From Halodesulfovibrio aestuarii DSM 17919 = ATCC 29578 (GTDB lineage Bacteria; Desulfobacterota; Desulfovibrionia; Desulfovibrionales; Desulfovibrionaceae): a stretch of DNA of 64,000 nucleotides. The stretch covers positions 806,001 through 870,000 of the forward strand of contig NZ_ARQF01000020.1 in the NCBI RefSeq assembly GCF_000384815.1. The letters run 5' to 3'. A program made the translations under genes and the position numbers. Positions 14,463-45,423 of the stretch are shown piece after piece (position 1 is the stretch's first letter; each line of letters opens with the position of its first letter). Under the pieces are notes generated by a model. That model searched no databases and was not told where the DNA came from. It was given only the letters and a program-made list of their open reading frames with translations.

Positions 14463-14650
14463 TACATTTTCTGGCACAGAGCATAACCTCCTCCAGTTCA
14501 AATTTTTTGCAGCTTTTCCCTGCTAATAGCAGAAGCATTTTACGGAGTATAAATTACTTTACATTTTTAAAGGCTAACGCCTAACGGCAGACACACCTTA
14601 CCTACTGATTTTACAGTTCTTTTACAAAAAACACGCCATTCCAAAAAGTT
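14463..14650. other. Intergenic stretch upstream of the 14651 sigma-54 promoter
   Basis: No gene or obvious terminator for the acyl-CoA ligase is visible here. TTTACA occurs three times near 14569, 14609 and 14620, and CTTTACATTTTTAAAG near 14568 partly resembles the nitrogen-gene palindrome. These may be activator sites for the promoter at 14650. The stretch is otherwise unremarkable. Confidence 0.35.
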
Positions 14651-14667
14651 GGCACGCTGTTTGCTTA
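14650..14667 (+). promoter_or_regulatory. Sigma-54 promoter
   Basis: The sequence TTGGCACGCTGTTTGCTTA has the -24 GG at 14651-14652 and the -12 GC at 14663-14664, with exactly ten bases between, and matches the TGGCACG-N4-TTGC consensus fully. It does not face a nearby protein gene: a terminator follows about 75 bp on. The promoter at 44230 differs by one base over 19. Confidence 0.85.
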
Positions 14668-14674
14668 ATTAAGA

Positions 14675-14768
14675 GTACCTTCTTTCTTTCATAGGTATTT
14701 CATGGCAAGGGGTGGCTCCCCAAAACCCATATTTCTAAAGCGGAGCGCTTAGCACTCCGCTTTTTTTA
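14675..14768 (+). ncRNA. Predicted sigma-54-dependent small RNA (about 95 nt)
   Basis: A transcript starting about 12 bp after the -12 element would run to the terminator at 14737-14768. It contains a GGGG-TGGCT-CCCC hairpin (14709-14721) and a C-rich CCCCAAAACCC single-stranded stretch. A 16-codon open frame (ATG 14702, product MARGGSPKPIFLKRSA) runs into the terminator hairpin, so a tiny peptide is an alternative. aroE begins 121 bp after the terminator. The RNA is inferred, not observed. Confidence 0.6.
14737..14768 (+). terminator. Terminator of the predicted small RNA
   Basis: Arms AAAGCGGAG (14737-14745) and CTCCGCTTT (14755-14763) with a 9-nt loop are followed by T residues. Confidence 0.88.
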
Positions 14769-14889
14769 TTGCTGACAACAGCTACACGCTCTGTACCTTA
14801 ACTTTTTTCTTCGCTACACTCTACGGCACACCAAAAACGTAATACACAACGTGCTGCCATAGAACGTGCTGCCCATAGAAGGAAGAAAC

Positions 14890-17689: not shown

Positions 17690-17707
17690 AAGCAGACTCT
17701 GTGCCAA
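17690..17707 (-). promoter_or_regulatory. Sigma-54 promoter of amtB-glnB
   Basis: On the minus strand the sequence reads TTGGCACAGAGTCTGCTTT, with GG and GC ten bases apart (complement CC 17704-17705 and GC 17692-17693). It lies 36 bp upstream of the amtB start and downstream of two palindromes at 17750 and 17801. Confidence 0.82.
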
Positions 17708-43030: not shown

Positions 43031-43333
43031 CTACATGCGTCTTCCCCCATCCCGATCATACCGACTACCAAACCTGCTGTGGCTACCATGCCCACCATGC
43101 ATTCCGAAAAAGTTACATACTGAATCCCACATAGACGTTGAATTACACTTAGCCTGATCGGTCAATCGGAACATATGCTGTCCATGCCGTCCGTACTGAT
43201 CATGGTATACATTGTGCTGTGCGTACTGATTATTCATCATTGGCATCTGGCGATTTGAATTGTTTGCAGCAAATGCAAAAGAACCTGTCAAAACCATCAT
43301 TACCGCTATAATCGCAATAAATTTTTTATTCAT
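43031..43333 (-). CDS. Small secreted His/Met-rich protein of unknown function
   Basis: I do not recognise the family. The 100-residue product has a clear signal peptide (KKFIAIIAVMMVLTGSFAFA-A). The mature part of about 77 residues is rich in His, Met, Asn, Gln and Gly (RQMPMMNN, YGRHGQHMF, MHGGHGSHS) and holds two cysteines. The composition suggests periplasmic metal binding, for example copper or nickel. GGAG precedes the ATG and a strong terminator follows, so it is a single-gene unit. Confidence 0.78.
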   Translation of the reverse strand: MNKKFIAIIAVMMVLTGSFAFAANNSNRQMPMMNNQYAQHNVYHDQYGRHGQHMFRLTDQAKCNSTSMWDSVCNFFGMHGGHGSHSRFGSRYDRDGGRRM

Positions 43334-44080: not shown

Positions 44081-44171
44081 TGCACATTATTCGCACAGGT
44101 GCACATGTGCAGATATTGCACATATAGAGTTGCACATGTGAGGGTTCAATCGTCCAGAATTTGCACATGTT
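44081..44171. promoter_or_regulatory. Phased TGCACATGTGCA enhancer array
   Basis: The perfect palindrome TGCACATGTGCA is at 44100-44111. Close copies are TGCACATGTGAG at 44131-44142 and TGCACATGTTTT at 44162-44173. These three centres are exactly 31 bp apart, close to three DNA turns. Half copies TGCACAT occur at 44081 and 44117. They lie about 60-130 bp before a sigma-54 -24 element, the usual distance for activator sites. The inner TGCAC...GTGCA resembles but does not equal the NtrC site, which has a longer spacer. Confidence 0.8.
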
Positions 44172-44228
44172 TTTATTCACATTTAAAACGATGCAAGTAA
44201 CTATCTTATTTTAAAAGATTATTATATT

Positions 44229-44246
44229 TGGCACGCTGTATGCTTA
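44229..44246 (+). promoter_or_regulatory. Sigma-54 promoter of the structured RNA
   Basis: TTGGCACGCTGTATGCTTA has GG at 44230-44231 and GC at 44242-44243 with ten bases between. It differs from the promoter at 14650 by one base. Expected transcription start is near 44254. Confidence 0.83.
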
Positions 44247-44253
44247 TACAAAT

Positions 44254-44666
44254 TCAAACAGCATAGAGAACGCAAGCAACATTGCAAACAGAGCTTGCTT
44301 CTTACAGCATTGTGGCAGATGCAAATAAGATAGCAATACATACTCCTCGTTAAAAAAACGTATTGAAATTCAGTCCCCCCCTTACACCCCGGGGCAGACT
44401 GAACGCCTCTAGCAAAGGCACTCTGCTGTATCCCCCACACTGATACAGCTTAAGGTAAGAAAAAGGAGATGGTTCATACCTCCTCACCATTTCCATCAGG
44501 TCCCAACGGGGGTTGGTCACTCGACCCCCGCTTACTGAGCAACTAACAGTTCTTACTGTTTTTATATATAACAACAAGCATAGACACTCATACTAACCCA
44601 CGTTAAGTTTCCTCCTTTAGCAAGGCCTCTTCTGCTCCCCGGCATCTGTCGGGGAGCACTTTTTTT
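44254..44666 (+). ncRNA. Predicted sigma-54-dependent structured RNA (about 410 nt), no known family recognised
   Basis: The interval lacks a convincing protein gene on either strand but has at least five hairpins. These are TTCAGTC/GACTGAA (44369, 44397), GCCT/AGGC (44405, 44416), GCTGTATC/GATACAGC (44425, 44442), AGGAG/CTCCT (44464, 44480) and CGGGGGT/ACCCCCG (44507, 44524). AACAGT/ACTGTT with T's (44545-44563) may be an internal terminator. The final terminator is at 44634. Unpaired C-rich or CCTCC stretches (44374-44381, 44479-44484, 44611-44615) could pair with ribosome-binding sites. No RNase P, tmRNA, SRP or 6S hallmark is visible. The RNA and its ends are inferred. Confidence 0.68.
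44634..44666 (+). terminator. Terminator of the structured RNA
   Basis: Arms GCTCCCCG (44634-44641) and CGGGGAGC (44650-44657) are followed by ACT and T7. No protein gene lies upstream except DUF523, 570 bp away. Confidence 0.9.
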
Positions 44667-44829
44667 ATGCAGGATACAAACCCGAGAAGCACCTGCCAGT
44701 GCCCCAATATAATCATGAATTATAAAACGTTTCTTCGCCTTTGCTTTTCATAATATTATTAGCCCATTGTAAAAATTGAGCTGGAACCATTAGTATTACA
44801 GCCCAGAGTAATCATAGAAGCTATAAAAA

Positions 44830-45423
44830 ATGGCTGTGTACCATACAAAAATGGAACAGAATCTTTATTACATGATGCACTCAACCCACGACCATAAGAT
44901 AGAGCTGCTCAAAACTCTTTCTTCGCTTAATAAGCAGTACGCGGGCATACTACGGCGCAAACCACCAGGGGAAGACAGGTGGTCACCCATTATGGTTCTT
45001 GAACATATAGTTCTTGCAGAACGCTCACTTCTTGGCGGGCTACCGGAACCCGAAGATATGGAGCTTCTGCACAGAACCTTTGCTCATAAAATCTCGTACG
45101 CGATCACATCGTATGTTTTTAACCTGCAACTACTGTTACCCGTACCAGAGTTAGCTATGTACCCTAAAGGTGAGTACGATATTTATGAATTAACAGACAT
45201 GTGGGATGAAAACCATGCATGGCTTCGTTCATTCATTACTGAAGCACCACGGGAATGCCTTTCTGAAAATTACTTCAGGCATCAAATTGCCGGGCCTATG
45301 AACATTGAACAGGTCATGGGATTGAATCTTGCCCATATTGTGATGCATGAATTTCAACTTTCGCACATTTTTATGGAGTTAAATGTTGAAACTTCGCATC
45401 TGCCCTATGAATCTTCAGTATGA
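44830..45423 (+). CDS. DinB-like domain protein
   Basis: The 197-residue protein fits the DinB/YfiT four-helix-bundle group. Likely metal-ligand histidines lie in MVLEHIVLAERS and in the late NLAHIVMHEFQLSHI. Such proteins are metal-dependent transferases or hydrolases with varied thiol partners; the substrate is unknown. No strong ribosome site is seen, and ATG 44851 is an alternative start. It ends before a bidirectional terminator. Confidence 0.8.
   Translation: MAVYHTKMEQNLYYMMHSTHDHKIELLKTLSSLNKQYAGILRRKPPGEDRWSPIMVLEHIVLAERSLLGGLPEPEDMELLHRTFAHKISYAITSYVFNLQLLLPVPELAMYPKGEYDIYELTDMWDENHAWLRSFITEAPRECLSENYFRHQIAGPMNIEQVMGLNLAHIVMHEFQLSHIFMELNVETSHLPYESSV

Follow-up and report, generated by a model that had tools for sequence, protein, structure and literature searches.

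The 64,000-nucleotide window from Halodesulfovibrio aestuarii (the whole stretch of DNA that was analysed) contains a conserved locus in which an array of half-sites and a sigma-54-type promoter precede a candidate non-coding RNA of about 410 nt. In the reading that we favour, with a probability of roughly 0.6, the ZraSR system and sigma-54 respond to envelope or metal stress by making a trans-acting RNA, which blocks ribosome-binding sites. Judged by its sequence, the RNA is real, conserved and not described in the literature searched; it represents a new RNA family in which two ideas already known are brought together. DNA comparison finds it in six of the ten genomes of the genus, that of H. 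aestuarii included; this form is termed type I. The features of the locus, in window coordinates, are as follows.

44081..44087, + strand: outermost half-site TGCACAT, read from the sequence; TGCACA stands in that column in 6/6 type I loci
44100..44111, no strand: dyad TGCACATGTGCA, first 31-bp-phased site, read from the sequence; G001 has TGCACTTGTGCA, with one base changed
44116..44122, + strand: half-site TTGCACA amid the phased sites (motif scan)
44130..44136, + strand: second 31-bp-phased site, TTGCACA (motif scan)
44152..44157, − strand: degenerate inverted half-site, GTCCAG here and GTGCAA or GTGCAC in five relatives (alignment)
44161..44167, + strand: third 31-bp-phased site, TTGCACA (motif scan)
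44228..44243, + strand: sigma-54-type promoter TTGGCACGCTGTATGC; TTGGCACG and TGC are kept in 6/6 type I loci
44254..44667, + strand: candidate non-coding RNA of about 410 nt, its start placed from the promoter and its end from the terminator
44307..44322, + strand: hairpin 2 with loop UGUGGCAG, an 8-mer that recurs in the RNAs of 10/10 genus genomes and in G028
44334..44365, + strand: hairpin 3 with an anti-Shine-Dalgarno (anti-SD) loop CUCCUC at 44343-44348 (fold and alignment)
44369..44403, + strand: hairpin 4 with a C-rich side (fold and alignment)
44405..44419, + strand: hairpin 5 (fold and alignment)
44425..44449, + strand: hairpin 6 with a C-rich loop; three pairs have both sides changed
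44465..44494, + strand: hairpin 7 with anti-SD loop ACCUCCUC at 44478-44485, predicted 0.99 unpaired
44507..44530, + strand: hairpin 8 (fold and alignment)
44545..44560, + strand: hairpin 9 (fold and alignment)
44608..44618, + strand: anti-SD segment UUUCCUCCUUU ahead of the terminator, invariant in 6/6 type I loci and predicted 0.64-0.77 unpaired
44633..44667, + strand: intrinsic terminator, a stem at 44633-44658 followed by a T-run, conserved in 6/6

The starts of the phased repeats are spaced exactly 31 bp apart, and with the additional half-sites they form, at 44081-44167, the array that an earlier, sequence-only reading had described. TTGCACA by itself is not rare (23 occurrences in the window against 18.15 expected, a count reached by 12 of 100 shuffles), but its 31-bp triple is: TGCAC-N26-TGCAC-N26-TGCACA matches once per genome in six of 149 family genomes, each time at the studied locus, and a reversed control pattern gave no match among the same 149. 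An exact survey of the H. aestuarii genome for paired half-sites returned eight rows, four of which belong to the studied array; the pairs at C9 and C11 were dismissed as chance, C9 being coding by eye and C11 carrying nearly identical letters. The 31-bp phasing is a trait of type I, as the type II relatives described below space the same half-sites differently.

The GG-N10-GC promoter seen by the same reading is present at 44228-44243 as a TGGCAC-N5-TTGC-like -24/-12 element, kept in all six type I loci. The motif TTGGCACN6TGC occurs three times in the window, where 0.25 are expected and none of 100 shuffles reaches three. Its third occurrence, at 17692-17707 on the − strand, lies directly before an ammonium-transporter-like ORF followed by a PII-like ORF (by eye) and probably reflects ordinary nitrogen control. 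At the studied locus, the putative activator sites lie about 90-170 bp before the start placed from the promoter and are conserved in type I, which is consistent with the earlier view that they stand at activator distance (about 80-150 bp upstream).

For the + strand of the RNA region the predicted folding energy is -122.1 kcal/mol, while shuffled sequences average -91.1 (z -4.8; 0/100 shuffles as good). Folding of the − strand is strong as well (z -3.75), as expected where hairpins exist. Ten hairpins comprising 73 pairs keep their pairing in 94.5% of cells over the six genomes, and pairing falls to 36-46% in slid-partner controls. The "at least five" hairpins initially proposed are real, but their number was put too low. 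Covariation, computed here from six related sequences, gave a divided result: changes on both sides of a pair exceed those in shuffles (11 cells against 4.8, with 1/500 shuffles as high; 8 pairs against 4.4, with 12/500 as high), hairpin 6 being the best supported, whereas "further pair types" do not rise above shuffles (264/500) and the RNAalifold covariation term is slightly unfavourable (+1.31). No frame of at least 12 codons is conserved in all six sequences on either strand, which bears out the absence of a convincing protein gene from these 410 bp. The terminator, likewise, is as strong as claimed.

Two possible small coding features lie nearby. The stretch at about 44770-44900 (+ strand), conserved in six genomes just before a DinB-family ORF, reads as a short peptide in another frame (by eye); either the DinB gene may begin here or a small gene may overlap it. 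At 43031-43333 (− strand) lies a small His/Met-rich protein, probably secreted and with no Pfam match.

A covariance model built on a 175-nt core matched the same six genomes among 297 relatives; the DNA comparison had given a seventh match in another genus (G026), covering part of the array and promoter region only. The remaining four genomes of the genus carry a diverged form, type II, with the same half-sites arrayed, a sigma-54 promoter and a longer RNA. Its elements stand in the same order by eye: the UGUGGCAG loop, a CUCC loop, a C-rich hairpin and a CUGUAUCCC-like hairpin, then a GG...CCUCCUC...CC hairpin, a G-rich hairpin and ACCUCCU before a terminator with a weaker T-run. The hairpin GG...CCUCCUC[AGU]CC is kept in all four type II RNAs. 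At E 0.01 the core model did not reach type II. When run unfiltered, it gave as its best matches hairpin 7 at all but one of the four type II loci (E 0.02, 0.069 and 0.33) and, end-to-end but gappily, a second RNA of the genus (L207, E 0.028), along with many weak hairpin-8-like matches on both strands. A DUF523-type gene (PF04463 in H. aestuarii) lies upstream in type I loci with its coding letters conserved; for type II, inspection of the ORF lists by eye showed it at L123 and L124, two of the four loci. Within a single genus, the locus keeps its control, position and motif although almost all of its sequence has drifted.

Consistent with the initial impression that no described RNA family is present, a search against Rfam found nothing in the region at gathering score, and below it only matches of E 0.3 or worse. 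These include suhB and mmgR at E 0.47; Rfam may not hold the SmelA075, SmelA099 or CcsR families discussed below. Neither Qrr nor CrcZ was among the Rfam matches of the region. An 18-mer scan of named genomes yielded four stretches, two from Halodesulfovibrio and two unrelated ones that were taken as chance. In titles and abstract openings of the literature on ZraR/zraP, Halodesulfovibrio and D. vulgaris small RNAs, we found no description of this RNA.

The most widely shared element, CCUCCUC, is the exact complement of the Shine-Dalgarno (SD) sequence. Each type I RNA has five to eight copies of the 5-mers CCUCC and CUCCU, where dinucleotide shuffles average 0.9-1.3, and for each of the six RNAs only 0-3 of 200 shuffles are as high; the test leaves out the four type II loci and six others, and its G001 copy of the second RNA is shortened. 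In H. aestuarii the motifs are predicted to be 0.86 unpaired against 0.49 for the RNA overall. The motif is not specially exposed in the G010 RNA (0.41 against 0.44 overall), and in RNAs of genus g5 it is 0.46-0.83 unpaired, three of the six tested falling at 0.46-0.59. In type I RNAs, the CCUCC-type motif is above chance and exposed. As the exposed loops match the SD complement, the RNA may damp protein production under stress, and by analogy pairing with ribosome-binding sites would most simply explain such a design.

The likely activator emerged from a BLAST search with a type II locus, which led to an array in genome G134. There, the order is array, zraP, a gene for a DUF4405 protein, zraS (histidine kinase) and zraR (response-regulator EBP); the G134 ZraP scores 30.0 with PF13801, barely above the cut-off of 29.2. 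The H. aestuarii orthologue (L031/L125) shares 65% identity with G134 ZraR over 387 residues and, in the DNA-binding domain, 80% over 49 residues, far above the other EBPs fetched from the same genome. A tree of 54 EBPs (G134, 27 from H. aestuarii and 26 from the family, leaving out three own and four family EBP loci plus two further own EBP matches) places L031 as the sole H. aestuarii sequence in the G134 ZraR clade, with 25 of the 26 family sequences. The node joining L031 has no support value after rooting, and the next node out, which adds L028 of H. aestuarii, has a value of 1.0. By these comparisons, the H. aestuarii regulator is orthologous to the zraP-linked ZraR. Type I genomes have a ZraR frame of 550-566 aa and type II genomes one of 475-479, and a few other genera also have long forms; that of H. 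aestuarii has 563 aa, with a Q/N/G-rich linker ahead of the DNA-binding domain.

Five half-sites (7 of 8 letters) lie within 130 bp upstream of zraS in H. aestuarii, and three to five do so in nine of the ten genus genomes, the tenth zraS locus (G003) being interrupted by a contig end. The element before zraS of this genus reads TTTGGCAYG then TTTTTCA and is without the GC of a -12 box, so a canonical sigma-54 promoter is unsupported there; a script found no TGGCAY-N5-6-KGC before these genes. Outside the genus, 12 loci around the ZraR orthologue were compared, and 10 show two or more half-sites in 130 bp near a sigma-54-type promoter; in one of these ten, G060, a single half-site is upstream of that promoter. 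A script extracted zraP-type ORFs from eight of these ten loci, G080 and G026 being without. In G060, one zraP-like ORF sits on a different contig from the zraR orthologue. In Halodesulfovibrio the zraP homologues are found elsewhere; those of H. aestuarii are 2-3 kb away from other EBPs and have sigma-54 promoters that lack the array. The name ZraR is therefore based on its orthology to regulators that are linked to zraP in other genera. The presence of these homologues also weakens the idea that the RNA replaced zraP.

The zraR gene is unlinked to the RNA locus. Strong matches to the sigma-54 activator domain number 32 in the genome and none in the 64-kb window; of the 30 EBP loci fetched, none has a 120-bp cluster of at least three exact half-sites within a 1.5-kb flank, the cluster before zraS lying just beyond the flank scanned. 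An activator encoded next door was rejected on these grounds. NtrC sites are TGCACC-like, and glutamine-synthetase-like genes lie upstream (by eye), yet nitrogen control was dropped because the half-sites were traced to zraS and zraP promoters. The sequence-only reading had proposed that a dedicated activator drives a long regulatory RNA. The conserved promoter, array, ten hairpins and terminator and the lack of a frame point to such an RNA, but "dedicated" no longer fits, since such half-sites also occur before zraS, before a second non-coding locus and before zraP-type genes elsewhere. The activator is likely a ZraR-like sigma-54 response regulator encoded elsewhere in the genome.

The half-site-plus-promoter pattern has a match in at least 95 of 149 family genomes and its reversed control in nine. 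From the matches listed, we hand-picked 40 loci, omitting known regulator-adjacent ones; about half come from one genus and some have a single half-site. They contain 41 promoters. After 17 of these comes an SD-led ORF of 90 aa or more, zraP-like by eye in eleven cases, and the next 450 nt have 0-2 CCUCC/CUCCU 5-mers. Among the 24 promoters without such an ORF, 22 have 3-10 of these 5-mers over the same distance, and every one of the 20 promoters from other genera is among the 22; the remaining two, which have none, precede copies of the second RNA of this genus. The contrast may owe something to base composition, and "non-coding" is unproven for each of the 24, as some hold shorter ORFs. Behind array promoters, zraP-like ORFs (by eye) were noted in several genera (L210-L213, L221-L222, L242-L244). 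In genus g5 (L226, L229, L230, L233, L235, L236, L238, L240), an ORF-like stretch starts about 12 nt past the array promoter, runs for some 60-66 hydrophobic codons ending in RRSLL or similar and overlaps the hairpin before CCCUCCUC; it may be a leaderless small membrane protein or an RNA stem.

In H. aestuarii itself, the second array and sigma-54 locus lies at about 239.5 kb of the genome (C19; L207 617-940). Aligned from six genomes, its RNA is conserved, structured and non-coding, with a terminator visible in the alignment; anti-SD 5-mers are absent from the H. aestuarii copy. The segment GGAGGGGAA of this second RNA, which is altered in G009, might base-pair with the CCUCC stretches in the studied RNA.

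In the mechanism that we propose, envelope or metal stress would activate the histidine kinase ZraS, and phosphorylated ZraR would occupy the TTGCACA array about 90-170 bp before the presumed start and remodel RNA polymerase-sigma54 at 44228-44243. The product would be an RNA of about 410 nt ending near 44667, which would display three anti-SD segments, CUCCUC and ACCUCCUC in hairpin loops and UUUCCUCCUUU in a linker. Pairing of these segments with ribosome-binding sites would lower translation of target mRNAs, which would probably encode abundant envelope proteins. Sigma-E and Cpx small RNAs serve the envelope-stress responses of enteric bacteria, and the RNA studied here would be the corresponding RNA arm of the ZraR response; the stress link is drawn from zraP and zraSR.

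The same transcript might instead sequester an RNA-binding protein through its repeated hairpins in the manner of CrcZ or CsrB, which we consider unlikely. Its length and multi-hairpin form resemble sponge RNAs, the UGUGGCAG loop shared by all ten genus RNAs and G028 is not an anti-SD sequence, C-rich loops recur, and the CCUCC loops could themselves bind a protein. GGA is the CsrA motif, and many GGA loops are a trait of the CsrB/RsmZ sponges; here, GGA is found only in the stems of hairpin 7 and the terminator and in no loop, and the most widely shared element is precisely the SD complement. An RNA as described under another sigma-54 EBP is distinctly improbable. The many activator-domain matches outside the window leave room for such a regulator, and two further zraP-linked EBPs exist, but dense exact half-sites were absent from all 30 EBP loci scanned while five half-sites precede zraS, and the surroundings of the orthologous regulator carry the sites in most loci of other genera.

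We see very little chance that the region yields a short protein or a dual-function mRNA. An SD-like AAGGAG-ATG start does open a 25-codon frame in H. aestuarii with a near-identical peptide in G002 and G009, but the frame is shifted in G007 and G008 and absent from G001, leaving it in three of six genomes, and changes fall where pairing persists. It is just as improbable that the region serves as a long untranslated leader for the DinB-family gene that follows: on the + strand, the first gene found after it begins at 44830, but the strong terminator that intervenes is conserved in all six loci. We retain the ribosome-blocking RNA under ZraR control as the best explanation.

The ZraSR-zraP regulon is known from E. 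coli and Salmonella; ZraR is known to control very few genes, centred on that of the periplasmic chaperone ZraP. The system studied here would share with it sigma-54, a response-regulator EBP, a kinase-regulator operon and, in other genera of the family, a zraP-type target. It differs in that array promoters also precede non-coding RNAs and in that zraP of H. aestuarii is not beside zraSR. Sigma-54-activated regulatory RNAs are likewise known, among them Qrr in Vibrio and CrcZ in Pseudomonas, and the RNA studied here appears to belong to this class. Qrr RNAs are about 100 nt long with LuxO sites TTGCA-N3-TGCAA, in contrast to the roughly 410 nt deduced here, and CrcZ carries A-rich Hfq motifs.

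The table of the D. vulgaris sigma-54 regulome gives DVU3382-DVU3381 and DVU3384 as the targets of DVU3381, which we take to be the orthologue of the H. aestuarii ZraR, and no ncRNA among them; the four ncRNAs that it lists stand under DVU0653, DVU0679, DVU1419 and DVU2359 (PMC4641369). Dv_sRNA2 is the target of DVU0679 (PMC3333781). As reported there, Dv_sRNA2 and the other three resemble the RNA studied here in having a sigma-54 promoter with an EBP in a related bacterium, but they are not placed under DVU3381; they are set apart by listed regulator, not by sequence. SmelA075 and SmelA099 of Rhizobiales have hairpin loops with CCUCCUCCC, termed anti-SD, and were proposed to pair with ribosome-binding sites (PMC3927594). 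The CcsR ("cuckoo") RNA of Rhodobacter has a stress link (PMC10253847), which here is drawn from zraP and zraSR. As far as these reports describe them, all three are alphaproteobacterial, unlike the studied RNA, and CcsR has an RpoHI/RpoHII promoter and a DUF1127 partner.

More tentatively, ZraR-sigma54 promoters might drive fast-evolving RNAs throughout the Desulfovibrionaceae, with an exposed CCUCCU (the motif of the 16S rRNA 3' end) as the constant part; under periplasmic or metal stress, these RNAs would slow SD-led translation in general, and the motif-less second RNA would then possibly be an antagonist. An RNA arm of the ZraR response would be the sulfate reducers' counterpart of the enteric sigma-E and Cpx small RNAs and would offer a direct route to what ZraSR protects. 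The RNAs reported here, being without an Rfam match, add to a group with few studied small RNAs. Elsewhere in the window, at 14649-14772 (+ strand), a sigma-54-type promoter TTGGCACGCTGTTTGC is followed by about 100 nt ending in a stem and T-run (by eye), with an aroE-like ORF from 14866; by its sequence, this unit resembles a gene for a small RNA about as long as Qrr and dependent on sigma-54.
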